A DNA stretch of 64,000 nucleotides from Bdellovibrio sp. (lineage in GTDB: Bacteria > Bdellovibrionota > Bacteriovoracia > Bacteriovoracales > Bacteriovoracaceae), in assembly GCA_016187935.1 (NCBI GenBank), contig JACPIU010000014.1:124001-188000 (forward strand), read 5' to 3'. The position numbers and the translations under genes are program-made. Shown here one piece after another: positions 33,856 through 46,500 of the stretch; within the stretch, counting starts at the first letter, position 1; each line of letters begins with the position of its first letter. The notes under the pieces are model-generated. The model ran no database searches. It had not been told where the DNA came from and was given only the letters and a program-made list of their open reading frames with translations.

Positions 33856-35469
33856 ATGAAACATATCAAATCGCTTGTTTTATTAATTTTCCTTGTGCTG
33901 GCATGGAAAGCACAGGCCACTTCATTTACCGTTAAAAAAGAACAGTCGGCAGGACGTGTGAGCTTTCATCTCTCCCAACCTGATAAAGGCCTGCGCTTTT
34001 CAGGATTGGAACGGACCAGTGAAGTCTCCAAGGCCATTTTGCCTTTTAAGGCCTTCTTCATCAATGCCCGCCCTGAGGAATTAGATGTTGTAATTGAGAC
34101 CGGTGAGCTTCAGGATTTGGGAGAGATGGCGCTTGAACCTTATCTTCCACGTCCATGTCGATGCAATGAGGTTCTCCAGAATCAATTCGTGAGTGAAACG
34201 TTTTTACAGTCCGACCCCGGGGCCTTTTACAAACTCGAGTACCTGGGAGACCTGCGAGGTGTCCCGTTGACTCGTCTGTTGGTATTTCCGGTGCGTTTGC
34301 AAGCAGGTGTGGGACAGAATTTTAAGGTGCATCTTTTTCCCGAACTGAATTTGCAAGTATCACGTAAAGGCCATTCAGTCTCTCTTTTTTCTGCAGATCA
34401 GGTGACACAGTGGCAGACCCGAGGAGAACAAAAGATGCTGATGGTGGCCCCCGAGAGGCATATAGGTGGCCTTCAGGCCTTTGTGGACTATAAGAGCAGA
34501 CATGGAATTCCTGTGACTGTGAAAAGCTTTGAAAGTATCGGAGGAACTAAGGAAGGATTGGCAGAATTCATAAAGACCAATCAGAAATTTACTCATGTTT
34601 TGATTGTAGGACATGAAAATATCATTCCAACATATTATCTTGCCACTGAATTCGAAGCGCAAACTCCCAGTGATCTTCCCTATTTCACCTTTGGGGGCGA
34701 GGGGGACACCATTGCGGATGTTTTTTATGGCAGAATTGCCAGTGACAGTAGCGAGGAAATTGCACGCATCCTTCAAAAAAGTATGGCCTTTGAACAATTA
34801 CCATTCGCGGATTATAAAAAATCCCTTGGACTGATCGGGATTGCCAGCAATGAAGGACAAAATCCCAGTGATAAACAATATTTGGAAGGTATGATGACGC
34901 CGTTAGAACAGGCCATCGGTGTTGCCGCCATTCGTTTTCATCAAGATACGCCTTTTTCGACTCCTGAGAATATTAACAAAAGATTGTCTCTTGGGGCCTA
35001 TTGGCTATCTTATATCGGTCATGGCAGTGGTTATTCTTGGCCTTCCATTGGAAGTCGTCCCTATGAAGTTGCCGATATTTTGAATATTCAGGCCTCCAAA
35101 GTCTTGCCGGTTATTGTTGATGTCGCCTGTCAGAACGGCCGTTTTCGAGGTGAAGCACGATTGGGAGAAAGTTTTATGAATGCCCGCCATGGTGAAACCG
35201 CCAGTGGGGCCCGAGCTTATTATGGTGGCACAGTCGATATCTCATGGGATCCACCTGCGATTATGAGTCAAGGTATTTCTCGTTTTGTGGCAAAAAGTTT
35301 TCAGGCAGGAAAACAGGGGAGTACCACAATTAGCGAAGCCTTGTGGGCCGGGCAGTTGCACTTAATGGAAACACATAGCGACCTCAAGGCCACCACTGAA
35401 AATCGCATTTGGTATCACCTCCAAGGTGATCCCACCATGTTACTCTCAGGAGCGGTACGCGATTTATAG
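33856..35469 (+). CDS. Secreted C25 (gingipain-type) cysteine protease
   Basis: 537 residues. A signal peptide (SLVLLIFLVLAWKAQATSF) is followed by a propeptide-like region of about 170 residues. The catalytic domain of clan CD, family C25, is at about 200-510. The catalytic pair is visible: His in SYIGHGSGYSWP and Cys in VIVDVACQNGRF, the order and spacing of the family. Gingipains cleave after Arg or Lys; this specificity cannot be read here. GGAGGG before ATG 33856 is a strong ribosome binding site. There is no T9SS C-terminal domain, so export is by Sec, with unknown final location. Likely nutritional or predatory protease. Confidence 0.85.
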   Translation: MKHIKSLVLLIFLVLAWKAQATSFTVKKEQSAGRVSFHLSQPDKGLRFSGLERTSEVSKAILPFKAFFINARPEELDVVIETGELQDLGEMALEPYLPRPCRCNEVLQNQFVSETFLQSDPGAFYKLEYLGDLRGVPLTRLLVFPVRLQAGVGQNFKVHLFPELNLQVSRKGHSVSLFSADQVTQWQTRGEQKMLMVAPERHIGGLQAFVDYKSRHGIPVTVKSFESIGGTKEGLAEFIKTNQKFTHVLIVGHENIIPTYYLATEFEAQTPSDLPYFTFGGEGDTIADVFYGRIASDSSEEIARILQKSMAFEQLPFADYKKSLGLIGIASNEGQNPSDKQYLEGMMTPLEQAIGVAAIRFHQDTPFSTPENINKRLSLGAYWLSYIGHGSGYSWPSIGSRPYEVADILNIQASKVLPVIVDVACQNGRFRGEARLGESFMNARHGETASGARAYYGGTVDISWDPPAIMSQGISRFVAKSFQAGKQGSTTISEALWAGQLHLMETHSDLKATTENRIWYHLQGDPTMLLSGAVRDL

Positions 35470-35606
35470 TGTTCGATTACTTTTTCCAGGATGATTTCTC
35501 GGGGAACATTAGGGTAAATTTCCATCAAAATTTTTTCCCATTTGGAAATGTTGCTTTCGATTTGTGATAAGTTTTTTAAGATTCCCAGGCAGTCTCGGTA
35601 AATCAT
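35415..35606 (-). CDS. Small hypothetical protein, 63 residues
   Basis: ATG at 35606 with an AGAGG ribosome binding site five bases upstream. The protein (MIYRDCLGILKNLSQIESNI..., then IYPNVPREIILEKVIEHYKS) is helical and without a signal peptide. It overlaps the last 55 bases of the C25 gene on the opposite strand. Codon use and ribosome binding site look genuine, so I include it; the function is unknown. The promoter would lie in 35607-35720. Confidence 0.5.
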   Translation of the reverse strand: MIYRDCLGILKNLSQIESNISKWEKILMEIYPNVPREIILEKVIEHYKSRTAPESNMVGSPWR

Positions 35607-35640
35607 AATAACCTCTTGGATTTGTATGTAAAACTAAAGT

Positions 35641-35669
35641 TTGACATATCAAACATGTTGAGCTATTAT
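35641..35669 (+). promoter_or_regulatory. Consensus sigma70 promoter
   Basis: TTGACA at 35641-35646 and TATTAT at 35664-35669, separated by 17 bases, is nearly the ideal sigma70 promoter. A start near 35677 is predicted. It points into the 3' end of the cyclase gene, which is on the opposite strand. The -35 box overlaps a TTTGACATATCAAA palindrome (35640-35653), a possible operator. Confidence 0.55.
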
Positions 35670-35676
35670 TGATTTC

Positions 35677-35763
35677 AAGTCAAGTCTGGAATTGTTACAG
35701 GACAGATCAGAATGCGGCCTAGGCCACCAATTTCATAGGATTGAAAGTGGCCTTGGCCTTTTT
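35677..35763 (+). ncRNA. Candidate small antisense RNA
   Basis: About 87 bases between the promoter above and an intrinsic terminator whose arms are GGCCTAGGCCAC (35716-35727) and GTGGCCTTGGCC (35747-35758): twelve base pairs with one T-T mismatch, followed by five T (35759-35763). The last 45 bases are antisense to the end of the nucleotide cyclase coding sequence. No coding frame is present. The terminator could instead serve only the C25 transcript that ends at 35469, so the RNA is a hypothesis. Confidence 0.35.
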
Positions 35764-37218
35764 GTATTTCACGCTATACACGGAGACTTGTTGGCTTCTT
35801 CCTTTGACTGAGATCAGACCCTTGTTTTCAATTTGAAAGAGTCCCGCCACAGCTTCATAGACATAACCTGTAATCAAAATATCCACATGCAATTCTTTGG
35901 TGGCCGATTCTATTCGCGACGCCAAGTTAACAGAATCACCAATCGCCGTATATTCACGACGAAGTGATGAACCATAATTGCCAACCATCGCAATACCATT
36001 GGCAATGCCGATTCCTATTTTCATGGGAACCTTGCCTTCTTGTTCCCATTTCTCCCGCATATTGCTGATAGTCTCTTGCATTTCAACCGCCACTTCAACC
36101 GCATTTTTCTCCTGATAGGCATCGTCGATAGGAGCGCCAAAGATTGCCATGAGTCCGTCACCTGTAAATTTTGCTACAGTCCCCTGATGTGCGTAAATTA
36201 TATCGACCATTTTTTCAAAATACTCATTAAGCTGGTTAAACATGATTTCTGGATCAATTGTCTCTGAGTAGGTACTAAAATTTCTCATGTCGCTAAAGAG
36301 CACGGTAACTTTCTTTCTCACGGGGTTGAGATTTGCCAGGCCTCCGGCATTTAATACTTGTTGGGCGACCGAAGGGGAAACAAATTTGAAAAGCGCATCT
36401 TCCATCACTTTTCTTTCTTGTAATTTATCGCCCATGATGTTTAGTTCCAGACCTATTGTTACAAATTCATTCGTACTTTTGAGTTCAGGAATGGAAATGC
36501 GGGAGTCCAGCTTTCCGTTGGCGATAGATTGCACCATCGCCACGATTTTAGACACCGGAGAGCTTAAATTTTTAGCGAAAAAATGAGTCAAAAGGAGAGC
36601 GATAATGGTCGAGAACATAAAACTCATGACTCCATAGAGGAGTAACTGATTTGTTCTTGCGGTCACATCGCTGGCTTTGACGTCAAGACTAACCTGTGAA
36701 ACAAATTCGCCTTTGGAATTAAAAATTGGTGCAGCTGCCGTGACCCATTCTCCCCAACGGTCTTTTTCATTTTTGTCACTGACTTCGAGATTGCTCAGGT
36801 CTTGTGGGCCGTCATATTCCTTATAGACTTCACCAGGTTTGGAGACCAGATCGGGATTTTCTTCAGCATCAATGGAAAATCGCACATGTCTCAGACTGTC
36901 TGGCCGAGTGTACATGGTGTAGATGTAACTGGTGTAAATATCATCTCGGCGGTTGGCATCGCGGACTTTGCGCAATTGATTGGCCAATTCTAAATAAGTG
37001 GGGCTTGTGTTCTCTGCTGCGGCAATGACGAACTGGTGTTTATCACCATCTTGCAAGGCCGCTGTGGTCGTGGCAATAGAAAGAACTTTGCTTTTGATCT
37101 CTTGCAACAGCATTTCTTTTGATTGAAGCATGATGAGAATAGAGGCCACAGAACTGGCCAAGAGGCCAAGACATAGATAACTCGCAAAAAGCTTGAGTTT
37201 AAAGCTCGTCGATCTCAC
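35719..37218 (-). CDS. Class III nucleotide cyclase with periplasmic sensor and HAMP
   Basis: 499 residues. Two transmembrane helices (about 11-33 and 193-215) bracket a periplasmic sensor of about 160 residues with CHASE/Cache-like length. A HAMP follows (SPVSKIVAMVQSIANGKLDSRI), then a class III catalytic domain at about 300-490. Metal-binding aspartates are in VLFSDMRNF and FTGDGLMAIFGAP; the lysine preceding the second (VAKFTGDG) fits adenylate specificity, and EYTAIGDSVNLASR is conserved. Probably an adenylate cyclase making cAMP on a periplasmic signal. The gene end overlaps a candidate antisense RNA. It is followed upstream by a radical SAM gene on the same strand. Confidence 0.88.
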   Translation of the reverse strand: MRSTSFKLKLFASYLCLGLLASSVASILIMLQSKEMLLQEIKSKVLSIATTTAALQDGDKHQFVIAAAENTSPTYLELANQLRKVRDANRRDDIYTSYIYTMYTRPDSLRHVRFSIDAEENPDLVSKPGEVYKEYDGPQDLSNLEVSDKNEKDRWGEWVTAAAPIFNSKGEFVSQVSLDVKASDVTARTNQLLLYGVMSFMFSTIIALLLTHFFAKNLSSPVSKIVAMVQSIANGKLDSRISIPELKSTNEFVTIGLELNIMGDKLQERKVMEDALFKFVSPSVAQQVLNAGGLANLNPVRKKVTVLFSDMRNFSTYSETIDPEIMFNQLNEYFEKMVDIIYAHQGTVAKFTGDGLMAIFGAPIDDAYQEKNAVEVAVEMQETISNMREKWEQEGKVPMKIGIGIANGIAMVGNYGSSLRREYTAIGDSVNLASRIESATKELHVDILITGYVYEAVAGLFQIENKGLISVKGRSQQVSVYSVKYKKAKATFNPMKLVA

Positions 37219-38269: not shown

Positions 38270-40753
38270 TTAAAATTTCAAAGCAGCAAAGGCCTTTTTT
38301 ACCAGGGCCTCGCAAGGTGTTTTCTTGAGCGACCAAACATTTTTTGTAAGATTAACATGTGAACCAAAGTTCTGTTTTTCGAAATCCATTTTGACCGAAC
38401 ATTTATGCACGAACAAGGTGGATTTAAATTTTAGAACATTGACCGTGAGTGAAGGAAGTTTGACTTCATTTCCAAGACTAAATTGATATTTAATTTTCTT
38501 GCGCTCCAGAAGTTTTACCAGCGTTGCAGTATGGCCATCGGTCAATAATTTTACACTGAGAATATCACCGTTATTGGTAGGGAGGTCTACGTCGCTATCA
38601 GATTCACCTAAATACTTCAGCACTTTTTTTCGTAACTTCTGTTCAAAGATGACGTTGTCATGTTTTTTTAGAAAATCCAGAAGATCAACTTTTAAATCGG
38701 CATAGTCTTCATCTTTAATCACGAGGGGATGAATGCCATAAGCATCGAAATAGGTCCCTTCTTCACTTAGCGCTCGCGCCAAACCCTTGATCCAATTAAT
38801 CTGATCCGACTCGAGTTCTTTTTCATTCGCGCCAAAAATCTTGGCAGAGAGTGTATGCAATTTTGCCACATCATCACCTGCCAATTTTTTCTTGGCCTCA
38901 TAAAGTATGGCACCATTGGAAAACAATTTTTTGACGGTGCCGGCATCGCCGGACGAATCAACAATTTTTTGGTCTCTCTGATATGTTTGGAACTCGGCCA
39001 CTTCTAAAAAGAGTTTGCTCACGATAAAGGAATATCCTTGCGCCACAAATTCCATTTTCTTATTAGCGAAAAATCTTTTGACTTTACCAATCCAATAAGA
39101 GTCAGTGCTGTAGTCATCGTCCTTATTATAGGTGTCATGAGAATCAACTTCTGGGCTGACTGAACTTACAATGTATTGGTAACCTGAGGAAAGTTCTTTG
39201 TGAACGATGCTGCCGTTTTTAAACAAATAAGCGATTTTTCCTACGCGATTGTTTTCATCCAAGACAATTAAATCTGCCGAGAGATTGCCGAGATTGGCCA
39301 CCTCAGGCGAAGGACGGTTGGTTATATAACTGTAGCCGCTGACAGATTCCTTAAATTGAATGCGACCATCTTCGAAAACATAAGTCGTTATGCCGATGCG
39401 ATTGTTGGGATCAATGATTCGAGTATTTTTGCTGACACTCTCAAACTCGTTGACTTCGTTCATGAGAGAGCTAGATATATAAGAATAGCCGGTGGAATTT
39501 TCAATAAATTGCGCCTTTTTATTGGCAAAAACATAAACGACTTTACCAATGCGGTTATTTGAATCAATGGCGATAACTCCCATCGATAAACCGCCCAATT
39601 CAGGAACTTCGGGAGAAGGTGATAAGGCAATATAATTATACCCCGTCGAGTTCTCCTTATATTGCGCTTTTTGATTGGCAAAAGTATGCAGCACACGACC
39701 AATGCGATCATTTCCATCAATGGCTATCATGCCTGGTTTTAAACCGTTTTCCAATACTGCAACCTCTGCCGACATATTTCCCGAGATGTATGTATAACCG
39801 CTGTCAGGGTCACGATATTGGGCCTTTCCATTTTTAAAAACTGTTACAGTTTTGCCCACACGATTATTAGAGTCGATGGCAAAGGCATCTTTCTTAAGGC
39901 CGTTGAATTCTCCAATCTCGGGATTGAGATCACCTGAGACATAAGAATAATTTGTTGACGTTTCTTTATATTGACCTAGCCCATTGGCGAAAACATGCAT
40001 GGCCTTCCCGATCCGGTCGTTGGAATCTATGACCATCATGCCTGCTTTGGTTCCATTGGGAAGTGAAGTTACCTCGGGTGAGAGATTTTGTGAGATGTAA
40101 GTATATCTTGTCTCAGGTTCCTGATATGAGGCCTTGCGATTGCCAAAAATAACTTGAACCACCCCCACGCGTTTATTAGAATCAATCGCGACTATCCCTT
40201 TGGCCAGACCATCAAGTGAATCAACTTCTGCGGTGGCGTGGGCGACGATATAGTTGTAACCAGAGCTATCTTCACGGAATTGGGTTTGGCCTTTTTCAAA
40301 GACGTGTAAAGTCTTACCGATGCGGTCATTTGCATCAATGACGTATTTATTTTTGGCAATGCCCGAATACTCAGCAACCTCGGGAGTTGCATTGTTTGAG
40401 ATATAGCTATATCCGGTACTTTCTTCTTTTAATTGCACTTTTCCATTGGCAAAGGCCATCTTGACCGGACCGAGATGATTGCTAGCATCGAGAACAAAAC
40501 TCCCTTCAGGAAATCTTGTACTGGTCACTTTTTTGGCCAGTCGTTCATACGTGGAACTATAAGAATAACCTGAACTTGATTCTGTGAATTTTATAATGGA
40601 GCCGCTCACGCTGGTTTCAATGGCCGAAACAACTCCAATACGATCATTGTTATCAATGACAGTATCACGTAAACAAATATCTTGCAGGCAATCGCCGGCG
40701 AAAACTTGTCCTGTACACGCGAGAAGACTGAATGAAACGAGCATTTTCTTCAT
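38270..40753 (-). CDS. Secreted protein with about twelve 45-residue repeats
   Basis: 827 residues. A signal peptide (LVSFSLLACTGQVFAGD) precedes about twelve tandem units of 45-48 residues to about residue 590. The unit consensus is VIDxNxRIG, a hydrophobic strand ending in FxNGKxQ, then a (S/T)GYxYI strand and a SPEV turn. The last repeats degenerate (STDSYWIG, VDSSGDAG). The C-terminal 240 residues are unrelated, with cysteines near the end. The repeats are probably a solenoid or beta-propeller surface; I do not know a named family. ATG 40753 has TAGGAG upstream. No sigma54 site is present. Confidence 0.75.
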   Translation of the reverse strand: MKKMLVSFSLLACTGQVFAGDCLQDICLRDTVIDNNDRIGVVSAIETSVSGSIIKFTESSSGYSYSSTYERLAKKVTSTRFPEGSFVLDASNHLGPVKMAFANGKVQLKEESTGYSYISNNATPEVAEYSGIAKNKYVIDANDRIGKTLHVFEKGQTQFREDSSGYNYIVAHATAEVDSLDGLAKGIVAIDSNKRVGVVQVIFGNRKASYQEPETRYTYISQNLSPEVTSLPNGTKAGMMVIDSNDRIGKAMHVFANGLGQYKETSTNYSYVSGDLNPEIGEFNGLKKDAFAIDSNNRVGKTVTVFKNGKAQYRDPDSGYTYISGNMSAEVAVLENGLKPGMIAIDGNDRIGRVLHTFANQKAQYKENSTGYNYIALSPSPEVPELGGLSMGVIAIDSNNRIGKVVYVFANKKAQFIENSTGYSYISSSLMNEVNEFESVSKNTRIIDPNNRIGITTYVFEDGRIQFKESVSGYSYITNRPSPEVANLGNLSADLIVLDENNRVGKIAYLFKNGSIVHKELSSGYQYIVSSVSPEVDSHDTYNKDDDYSTDSYWIGKVKRFFANKKMEFVAQGYSFIVSKLFLEVAEFQTYQRDQKIVDSSGDAGTVKKLFSNGAILYEAKKKLAGDDVAKLHTLSAKIFGANEKELESDQINWIKGLARALSEEGTYFDAYGIHPLVIKDEDYADLKVDLLDFLKKHDNVIFEQKLRKKVLKYLGESDSDVDLPTNNGDILSVKLLTDGHTATLVKLLERKKIKYQFSLGNEVKLPSLTVNVLKFKSTLFVHKCSVKMDFEKQNFGSHVNLTKNVWSLKKTPCEALVKKAFAALKF

Positions 40754-43562: not shown

Positions 43563-46500
43563 CGTGTACCTTGGGTTGAAAGAATATTGCTCTCATAGTT
43601 ATCCGTTGTTTGTAGAAAATCTTCCTTTGGAATTTCGGTTGCAGTAGAAGAAGAAGTGGTAAAGTTGACTTCCGAACCGTCCAGAATTAAGTTGGCGAAG
43701 TCAATTAAGGTATCTCCAATTTCTGTCAGCGCGATGGTGAAACAATTCTGGCAAACTTCCTGTTTGTTCACAAAGTTTTTAAAAATGCCTCTGCCGCAGG
43801 TGGTGGCCAAGAGATATTCACCTCCTGAGGCAAAGGCAAGGCGGTAGGGATAGGTATGGCTAAGCAGGGGAACGTAACCATTTTGGGCCCAGCGCCAATT
43901 GTTGCCGCCATCGTGAGTGACTAGCACTCCGGGATCATGCAGGCCTACGAATACCCTCTCAGGGAATTTCGGATCAATCACAATCGAGTCGACTCCTCCT
44001 CCAAATCCGATATGTTTATATTCGGTGTTGTAGGTATAACTTTTGTCATACGCCCCTCCCAGATATTTGTTGTAATTATTCAAACCGTTGAGTAGGCGTG
44101 TCCATGTGGCACCACCATTTTCAGTTTTATAGAGACCATTGGCATTGGTCCCCTCGACTTGACCATAGTGAGAAGCCGTTCCGGCATACATAATTTGGGG
44201 ATTTTGCGGGTGAAGGGCCAAAGCCTGAGTAAAAATACCTACGGCGGTCGAAGTGGTTGTACCATTAGTGGTTGTGAATTTAAGCGAGGGATTAATACAG
44301 CTTTGATAATTAAGGGTGCAAGCAGTTCCATTCATAGCAGAAAAAGTATTTCCACTGTCTGTGCTCACATAGACGCCACTTCCCAATGTAGTGACCACGA
44401 CAATATTGGTTTGGGCGGGATGAATTTCTATTGCGGACACAACATTCATGGGTACGGAAGGAATGCGATACCATGTCTGTCCGGAGTCATCGCTTTTCCA
44501 AAGTCCCGTGCCCCAGCAAGGGTTCTTAGGAAGTGAAGCTGAATTGACCACCTCCTGAGCGACGTTACGATTTTTGGCATCCACGATTGAGGTTTTTAGA
44601 CTATTTGATTCCAAATTATTCGCGGCCCATGTGACCACATTGGCCTGGCCGCTATTAGGCACACCATAGTAACAAGCGCCTTGGGGGCCTTCTCCGGCAC
44701 CGGCGAATAATGTTGTAGGAGTTGTTGGATGAAAGGCCAGGCTGGTGATAGAACTATAGAAAGGAGCTTTTTTGCTTAGATCAACGGGCTGGACTGTGCC
44801 CGCTTGGTAATAATAAAGACGAGTTGATGCCCATCTTCCGCCACCAACAATAAAGGTATCCGGGTCTGTTGGATGAACTGCAATGGCATTATAATCGGTG
44901 CCATAAAGTCCCGCCCAACTCCAATTTTCTCCAGCATCGATTGATTTGTATAATCCACCTTCGGCCACAGTATAGACAATATTATTATCGGAAGGCGCGA
45001 TGACCACCGCTCGAACAGCGGAAATCTTAAGTCCATTGTTTCTGCTCTCGAAGGAGCTCACCGCGACTCCTGCGCTATTTTTGATATCGTGACCTCCGTT
45101 GAGAGAAACTTTGGTACCATACCCGTAGGAGTTGCTATAAATGACGTTGGGATTGGCGGGAGAAATATCAGAATAACCATGGTCAATGGTTGCGTGATTG
45201 CAAGTTCCGCGCTTAGTCCAATTCAAAAAACCATCGCCTTCCACAATACACTTGTGACCGATGACCAGGACCTTTTTGGGACTTGAGAATTCATCAATGC
45301 GAACTGTCTTCAGGAACAAGCCATTGAAGGCCGTTGCGCTTAATTTTTTCCAGGTGGTACTTTGCAAATCATTGGGTAGAACATAGATGGCCTGGGCGGC
45401 CGTGATGGCAATAATCAGGGGCACTTTCGAGTACGAGAGTTGCGCCAAACTATAACTATTATAATTGGTGGAAGGATGGACTTTGGAATCAGGATAAAAA
45501 AATTGTATATCCGTGATATCTTGCCCTGTAGGAAGTCCCTCACTTAAGTCCACCCAGGTTTTTCCTCCATCGAAACTGCGGATGATTGGAGTACTGGCGG
45601 GGGCGACTGTGTGCCAACCTTTATTGGTTCTGGTTCCTGCCACCAGATGGACACCACTGTTGGTTTTAACCGGATCAATTCGTATGACGGAAATGTTTCC
45701 ACCACCATTGCCGCTCCCGTTAGTGCCTGTAATGGCGACGCCATTTTTCATAATTTTGTTATGCGTGATTGGTAAGGTGGTGGTGAAGGTTTTACCACCA
45801 TTATATGATTCCCAAATGCCATCTTTGGTCGGCCATTGATCCATGCCGGAAAAAATATGGTAGGGATTTTCAGGATCAATTGCCACGGCAAAGATTTCTC
45901 CCTCAAGTGAAATATTACCGGCGCTGGTCCACTTCCAAGTTTTCCCACCGTTATCACTTCGCCATAATGGTGAAACATGTTTGCCGACAGTTCCGACGTA
46001 AATGATATCGGGATTTTTACTTGAAATGCTAATGGCCCGTACCCGAATTTTATGCAGTTCTCCCGGAATTCCAATCTCCTTCCAGGTATTGCCGTAATCT
46101 TCTGTTTTAAATAGTCCGCCGTCTGTGCCCCCCATAAAAGCAACATTGGGCAAAGTCGGATGGGCGGTAACAGCATTTGACCAGCCTCCTTGGAAAGCGA
46201 CTTGATGCCATGATTTTGAATAATCCAAGCGCGCAGAACTGATCTTGAGATTATCTAAGTCCATTTTTCCGTTATGAAGACCGATTAAGGTTTTCCCAAA
46301 ATGTATTTTCCCCTTTGTATCCAAGGAATTAATGAGAGCGGTCGTGCCGCTATAGACAATGATTCGCACTCCGGAAAATTCTCTCTTCAGAGATACTTTA
46401 ACATCATTCCATATTCCTACAGGGATAGTATAAGTGGCGGTGGCCAAAGTGGTATTATTTGAGGTTGCCCCAGCGGTCAGGATATCCTGTCGATAAAGCG

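Follow-up and report, generated by a model that had tools for sequence, protein, structure and literature searches.

In the window, i.e., the whole 64,000-nt stretch of Bdellovibrio sp. DNA that was analyzed, one palindromic operator would control two divergent, overlapping promoters: on the minus strand that of a conserved small protein, modeled as two helices, and on the plus strand that of an RNA of ~87 nt ending at a hairpin and a T5 run (Table 1). Judged by the targets of the same motif in related genomes, the predicted plus-strand transcript looks like an iron-controlled small RNA and not a dedicated antisense RNA of the adjacent cyclase gene. As a whole, the reading that we moderately favor is that of a single Fur-type operator serving a divergent small protein and a trans-acting starvation sRNA.

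Table 1. Features of the focal locus and its neighbors (positions are those of the window; G numbers denote genomes, G002 being the sister species Bdellovibrionales bacterium GWA2_49_15)
Feature	Position	Strand	Basis
Operator GTTTGACATATCAAAC (GTTTGA-N4-TCAAAC)	35639-35654		Sequence; family motif; common to two divergent promoters
Second palindrome AAACTAAAGTTT, half-site AAAC/GTTT	35631-35642		Sequence; overlaps first palindrome
-35 box TTGACA	35641-35646	+	Sequence; inside operator; retained in G002
-10 box TATTAT	35664-35669	+	Sequence; TATTCT in G002
Predicted short non-coding RNA, about 87 nt	35677-35763	+	Promoter and terminator; fold z; layout at five other genus loci
Terminator hairpin	35716-35758	+	-23.6 kcal/mol; G002 comparison
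Terminator T5 run	35759-35763	+	Sequence
Small protein gene, 63 aa, MIYRDCLGILKNLSQIE... (MIYRDC...)	35415-35606	-	Homologs; alignment; operator upstream
Proposed -35 box TTGACT of small protein gene	35678-35683	-	Conserved in G002; layout in G004, G072, G122
Proposed -10 box CAACAT, immediately before operator	35655-35660	-	Sequence comparison; weak consensus match in this genome
Peptidase C25 (gingipain-like) protein gene	33856-35469	+	Pfam; convergent
HAMP/adenylate-guanylate cyclase gene	35719-37218	-	Pfam; last codons overlap RNA terminator

The palindromic operator and its small protein gene

A TTTGA-N4-TCAAA palindrome incorporating the -35 box had originally been put forward as a possible operator. 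The palindrome is indeed present, albeit longer than proposed (Table 1), and is overlapped by a second one, AAACTAAAGTTT, to which a similar sequence, AAACTATAGTTT, occurs in G009. Genome-wide pattern searches indicated GTTTGACATATCAAAC to be one instance of a motif, GTTTGRYATRYCAAAC, whose exact form is found in 84 of the 129 family genomes, as compared to two genomes for a reversed control pattern. In addition, all 17 inspected copies of a small ORF, from this and other genera, carry the operator within ~66 nt upstream, with 0–3 mismatches (shuffled sequences average ~6). Motif distribution and small-ORF linkage thus strongly support the suggested operator function.

The focal copy of this ORF, on the minus strand, had been missed in the original prediction. 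It has a ribosome site (AAGAGG) a few nucleotides ahead of its ATG (35606), and a profile built from six homologs retrieved relatives from 61 of the 129 family genomes and 25 of 48 genera at a cut-off of E ≤ 0.05, so that the weakest few matches may be due to chance. By these comparisons, the small gene is the most conserved partner of the palindrome, and the palindrome is almost certainly its operator. Residues M1, C6, L10, and E17 are invariant in the protein alignment. No Pfam or NCBIfam family fits the protein, and none of the Fbp families is among the Pfam/NCBIfam matches (E ≤ 1) of 20 members. Structure modeling yielded a two-helix hairpin of modest confidence (pLDDT 70), for which a fold search of the PDB returned no significant match.

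Its putative promoter reads TTGACT-N17-CAACAT in this genome and TTGACT-N17-CACAAT in the same place in G002; the corresponding -10 box is TACAAT in G004, and G004, G072, and G122 have TTGACT-N16/17-TA(C/T)AAT immediately before the operator. With the boxes so placed, the plus- and minus-strand promoters overlap. The plus-strand string TTTCAAGTCAAGT had at first suggested either a second operator or a conserved 5′ end of the RNA; comparison with the latter three genomes instead favors a -35 region of the minus strand (ACTTGACTT), although the string is also found at G002:C11. At that locus (L036:1501-1548), a perfect operator, GTTTGACATGTCAAAC, with TTGACA-N17-TATTAT lies upstream of a DUF438/hemerythrin/PAS gene, and the string TTTCAAGTCAAGTGCGG is common to it and the focal locus of G002. 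Two further small ORFs (L103 and L104, in G076 and G009) are preceded by TAAA-N15/16-GCCGATAG, a sequence similar to a sigma-28 (FliA) promoter and overlapping the -10 box usually present there.

A short terminated RNA predicted on the plus strand

The plus-strand promoter, TTGACA-N17-TATTAT, is present as originally described and matches the consensus at 11 of 12 positions. Taken alone, it is not remarkable in number, with two sites of at least 11/12 in the 64-kb window versus 1.4 expected. In an unbiased set of operators, 20 of 24 TTGACA halves are followed, at a spacing of 16–18 nt, by a -10 box with 4/6 or more matching positions, as compared to 34% in shuffles, which argues that a second role of the operator as -35 box is common.

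The hairpin begins ~46 nt past the -10 box; the 87 bases formerly given for this interval instead span the predicted transcript as a whole, from its presumed start (~35677) through the last T of the run. Hairpin and T5 run were both confirmed, although the 12 stem positions comprise 11 Watson-Crick pairs and one T·T mismatch rather than 12 pairs. At -23.6 kcal/mol, this is the top T5-abutting hairpin on both strands of the window, and five Markov-shuffled windows yielded no hairpin as stable as -20 kcal/mol; a looser scan admitting T4 runs and longer hairpins picked up one on the minus strand, at 43785, that is lower in energy. The fold of the 89-nt focal RNA has a z-score of -3.2 (-4.4 for its G002 counterpart), and the predicted transcript contains no plus-strand ORF of at least 40 aa. 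By sequence only, the focal unit thus combines the promoter, intrinsic terminator, and non-coding character of FsrA- and RyhB-type sRNAs. Rfam searches at the gathering threshold gave no match in the window, and related loci gave a single sub-threshold match. Between start and hairpin, the RNA body is poorly conserved even when compared to G002, the comparison comprising two orthologous sequences only. As TAAAGTTT is absent from G002, we discarded its interpretation as a sigma-28 element. Taken together, the plus strand likely gives rise to a short RNA that ends at this terminator.

The predicted RNA unit outlives the cyclase gene

As originally proposed, the predicted RNA overlaps the 3′ end of the cyclase gene on the opposite strand, covering its last 45 nt including the stop codon (35719-35763). 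The accompanying suggestion that it modulates the cyclase mRNA, i.e., acts as a cis-antisense RNA lowering cyclase expression, was not supported. The overlap consists almost wholly of the stable, self-paired terminator hairpin. Moreover, in the sister species the cyclase has been deleted save for its last 16 codons (KYKNAQATLNPMKLVA and the stop), which directly follow the stop codon of a radical SAM gene and are exactly the terminator-forming stretch. Promoter, operator, minus-strand -35 box, and hairpin are all retained there, the hairpin with a compensatory change of its outer G-C to T-A, T·G in place of T·T, and a longer stem. The RNA unit thus outlives the cyclase. Conversely, the cyclase homolog of G001 ends in KYKTAQDLKDNLKLVA and a stop codon, with neither a hairpin nor such a promoter. 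The same two genomes, one with the hairpin but without the gene and one with the gene end but without the hairpin, led us to reject the hairpin as mere cyclase coding sequence. The predicted focal RNA hence shows the opposite-strand overlap of a cis-antisense RNA without depending on the target gene; control of the cyclase appears very improbable, and the overlap is most likely incidental.

Sibling loci in the genus and the peptidase mRNA

Six loci of the genus (the focal one, G002:C32, G000:C2, G000:C46, G001:C298, and G001:C346, whose operator is degenerate) have a terminator-like hairpin on the sRNA side of the operator, its T run starting 116–152 nt from the latter. No such hairpin adjoins any of the 53 flanks of other operators, and the window background is 4.7%, yet the 6/6 is not a blind test since the loci were partly found by their sRNA-like look. 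The whole layout of small ORF, operator, and RNA is repeated at G001:C298 and G001:C346, and G000:C2 contains a possible small-ORF remnant (MLTNNC...). Outside the genus, one of 15 small-ORF loci has an even marginal hairpin; among the loci examined, the combination of operator and terminated RNA was seen only in this genus.

A covariance model (R1) built from two sibling sRNA loci finds G001:C346 in a family scan (E = 2.6e-6) and G000:C46 in a local scan. The focal RNA is not recognized by this model. We therefore rejected homology of sequence between it and the sibling sRNAs; the focal unit resembles them in position and design only. The R1 candidates (about 110 nt; L039:1377-1486 at G000:C2, L040:366-478 at G001:C298, L141:1501-1604 at G001:C346, and L046:1550-1662 at G000:C46) have a 5′ hairpin, an unpaired CUCUUUCC, CUCCUUCC, or CCUCCCCCC stretch, a strong terminator, and the same operator. 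Their largely unpaired CUCUUUCC-like stretch could bind ribosome sites, and with these predicted features the R1 RNAs are a stronger analog of FsrA and RyhB than the focal RNA.

The focal elements might alternatively be explained without an RNA unit, with the palindrome serving the minus-strand gene only, TTGACA being a mere operator half-site, TATTAT an accident of A+T-rich DNA, and the hairpin terminating the C25 peptidase mRNA and shielding the cyclase gene. Such an arrangement would accommodate the poor conservation of the RNA body and the 17 small-gene loci at which the operator mostly has no RNA opposite, and a search from the peptidase stop codon to position 35716 found no second terminator-like hairpin. 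It would, however, require a 290-nt antisense 3′ UTR across the whole small gene, which would be unusual, and it accounts neither for the correctly spaced -10 box that usually accompanies TTGACA halves of the operator nor for the operator-hairpin loci beyond the focal one and its G002 ortholog, which have no preceding peptidase gene. We therefore consider it rather unlikely and retain the RNA unit as the preferred reading.

Operator targets in relatives point to iron

In related genomes, the operator neighbors identified by Pfam include FUR and FeoB at one site, three TonB-dependent receptors, two ChaN heme-uptake proteins, two CCP_MauG di-heme peroxidases, a solute-binding protein, FumC (fumarase C), and hemerythrin/DUF438. 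TonB receptors, FeoB, a Fur-family regulator, and ChaN are the make-up of an iron regulon, which argues for a Fur-type repressor as the likely reader of the operator. Fur-family proteins were found in each of five genomes tested, one per genome, including the focal genome (G000). At G103:C151 (L065), a Fur-family gene and feoB lie on opposite sides of one operator, and this Fur-family protein would be a good candidate for the regulator in question. The focal genome itself has only three strong operators, none of which adjoins a classical iron gene, so that the iron link rests on the relatives.

Could another regulator, for instance of the MarR or TetR type, read the operator of a regulon that is not iron-specific? 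For some of the targets, such as Kelch, DUF4856, and further secreted proteins, no role in iron metabolism is known, and GTTTGRYATRYCAAAC differs both from the E. coli Fur box and from the box predicted for other delta-proteobacteria, WTGAAAATNATTTTCAW (PMC545781). On the other hand, the association with a classical set of iron genes, among them feoB and a Fur-family gene at a single operator, and the presence of one Fur-family protein per tested genome both speak against this explanation, to which we assign a minor share of the probability. A Fur-type metal-sensing protein is most likely the repressor, the motif possibly representing a lineage-specific Fur box, and iron or a similar metal is quite probably the signal.

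Proposed mechanism and known parallels

The plus-strand -35 box lies within the operator, as does the point at which the minus-strand transcript presumably starts, and a bound repressor would thus shut both units. Given the same operator at iron and heme uptake genes across the family, this repressor is most likely of the Fur type and both units would be on under iron scarcity: in metal-replete cells, it would occupy the operator and keep both promoters silent, while metal-poor cells would make the small protein and the RNA together. As their promoters overlap, the two units may also compete. The RNA, ending at its hairpin, would then be a trans-acting starvation sRNA, which may work with the small protein; for action in trans, we put the chances at about even. 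More speculatively, the locus might represent a new type of compact starvation module of Bdellovibrio-like bacteria, in which an iron-type operator divergently expresses a short RNA and a two-helix protein of the M-I-I-x-N-C family that jointly reprogram translation under metal scarcity, the layout staying constant while the RNA sequence turns over fast.

The nearest working parallel is found in Bacillus subtilis, where the 84-nt sRNA FsrA and the small proteins FbpA, FbpB, and FbpC are controlled by Fur (PMC7430163). Both systems would place a short RNA of similar length and a small protein in one regulon under a metal box; FbpB has 48 aa (PMC7430163), as compared to 51–63 aa for the protein of the focal locus and of its ortholog in G002. 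In contrast to FsrA/Fbp, the RNA and the small protein lie back to back on one operator here, the protein has no Pfam/NCBIfam match to the Fbp families, and the focal RNA lacks the unpaired C-rich stretch that its genus siblings have and that, in sRNAs of the FsrA and RyhB type, is complementary to ribosome-binding sites; such sRNAs pair with mRNAs of iron-using enzymes. The likeness is hence one of design, with no kinship claimed. Among proteobacteria, Fur-controlled sRNAs such as RyhB are similar in their operator-overlapped promoter, short RNA, and strong intrinsic terminator; they differ in that the RNA is here paired with a small protein and shows no sequence relation to them (no Rfam match at the gathering threshold in the window). 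Bdellovibrio bacteriovorus, of the same broader bacterial group, likewise has short non-coding RNAs. These are attack-phase transcripts, of which three have FliA-type promoters, and in the passages covered they are linked to neither iron nor a small protein (PMC3627812). In a search of openly accessible papers, we found no description of an iron-linked sRNA or of this small protein in Bdellovibrio-like bacteria.

If correct, our reading would provide a Bdellovibrionota lineage with an iron-sparing RNA, a conserved but unannotated small protein family, and a candidate lineage-specific Fur box. It would also constitute an independent parallel to the Bacillus FsrA/Fbp pair, and with its two genes diverging from one operator, the locus would lend itself to a clean test of whether such small proteins help the RNA.

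As to the neighborhood, the C25 peptidase is conserved in the Bdellovibrionales MAGs GWA2_49_15 and nzgw164. In addition, the minus strand (38270-40753) encodes an 827-aa secreted protein without a Pfam match, which contains about a dozen repeats of the form DxNxRIGK...F.N...Q..E.S.GY.YI.
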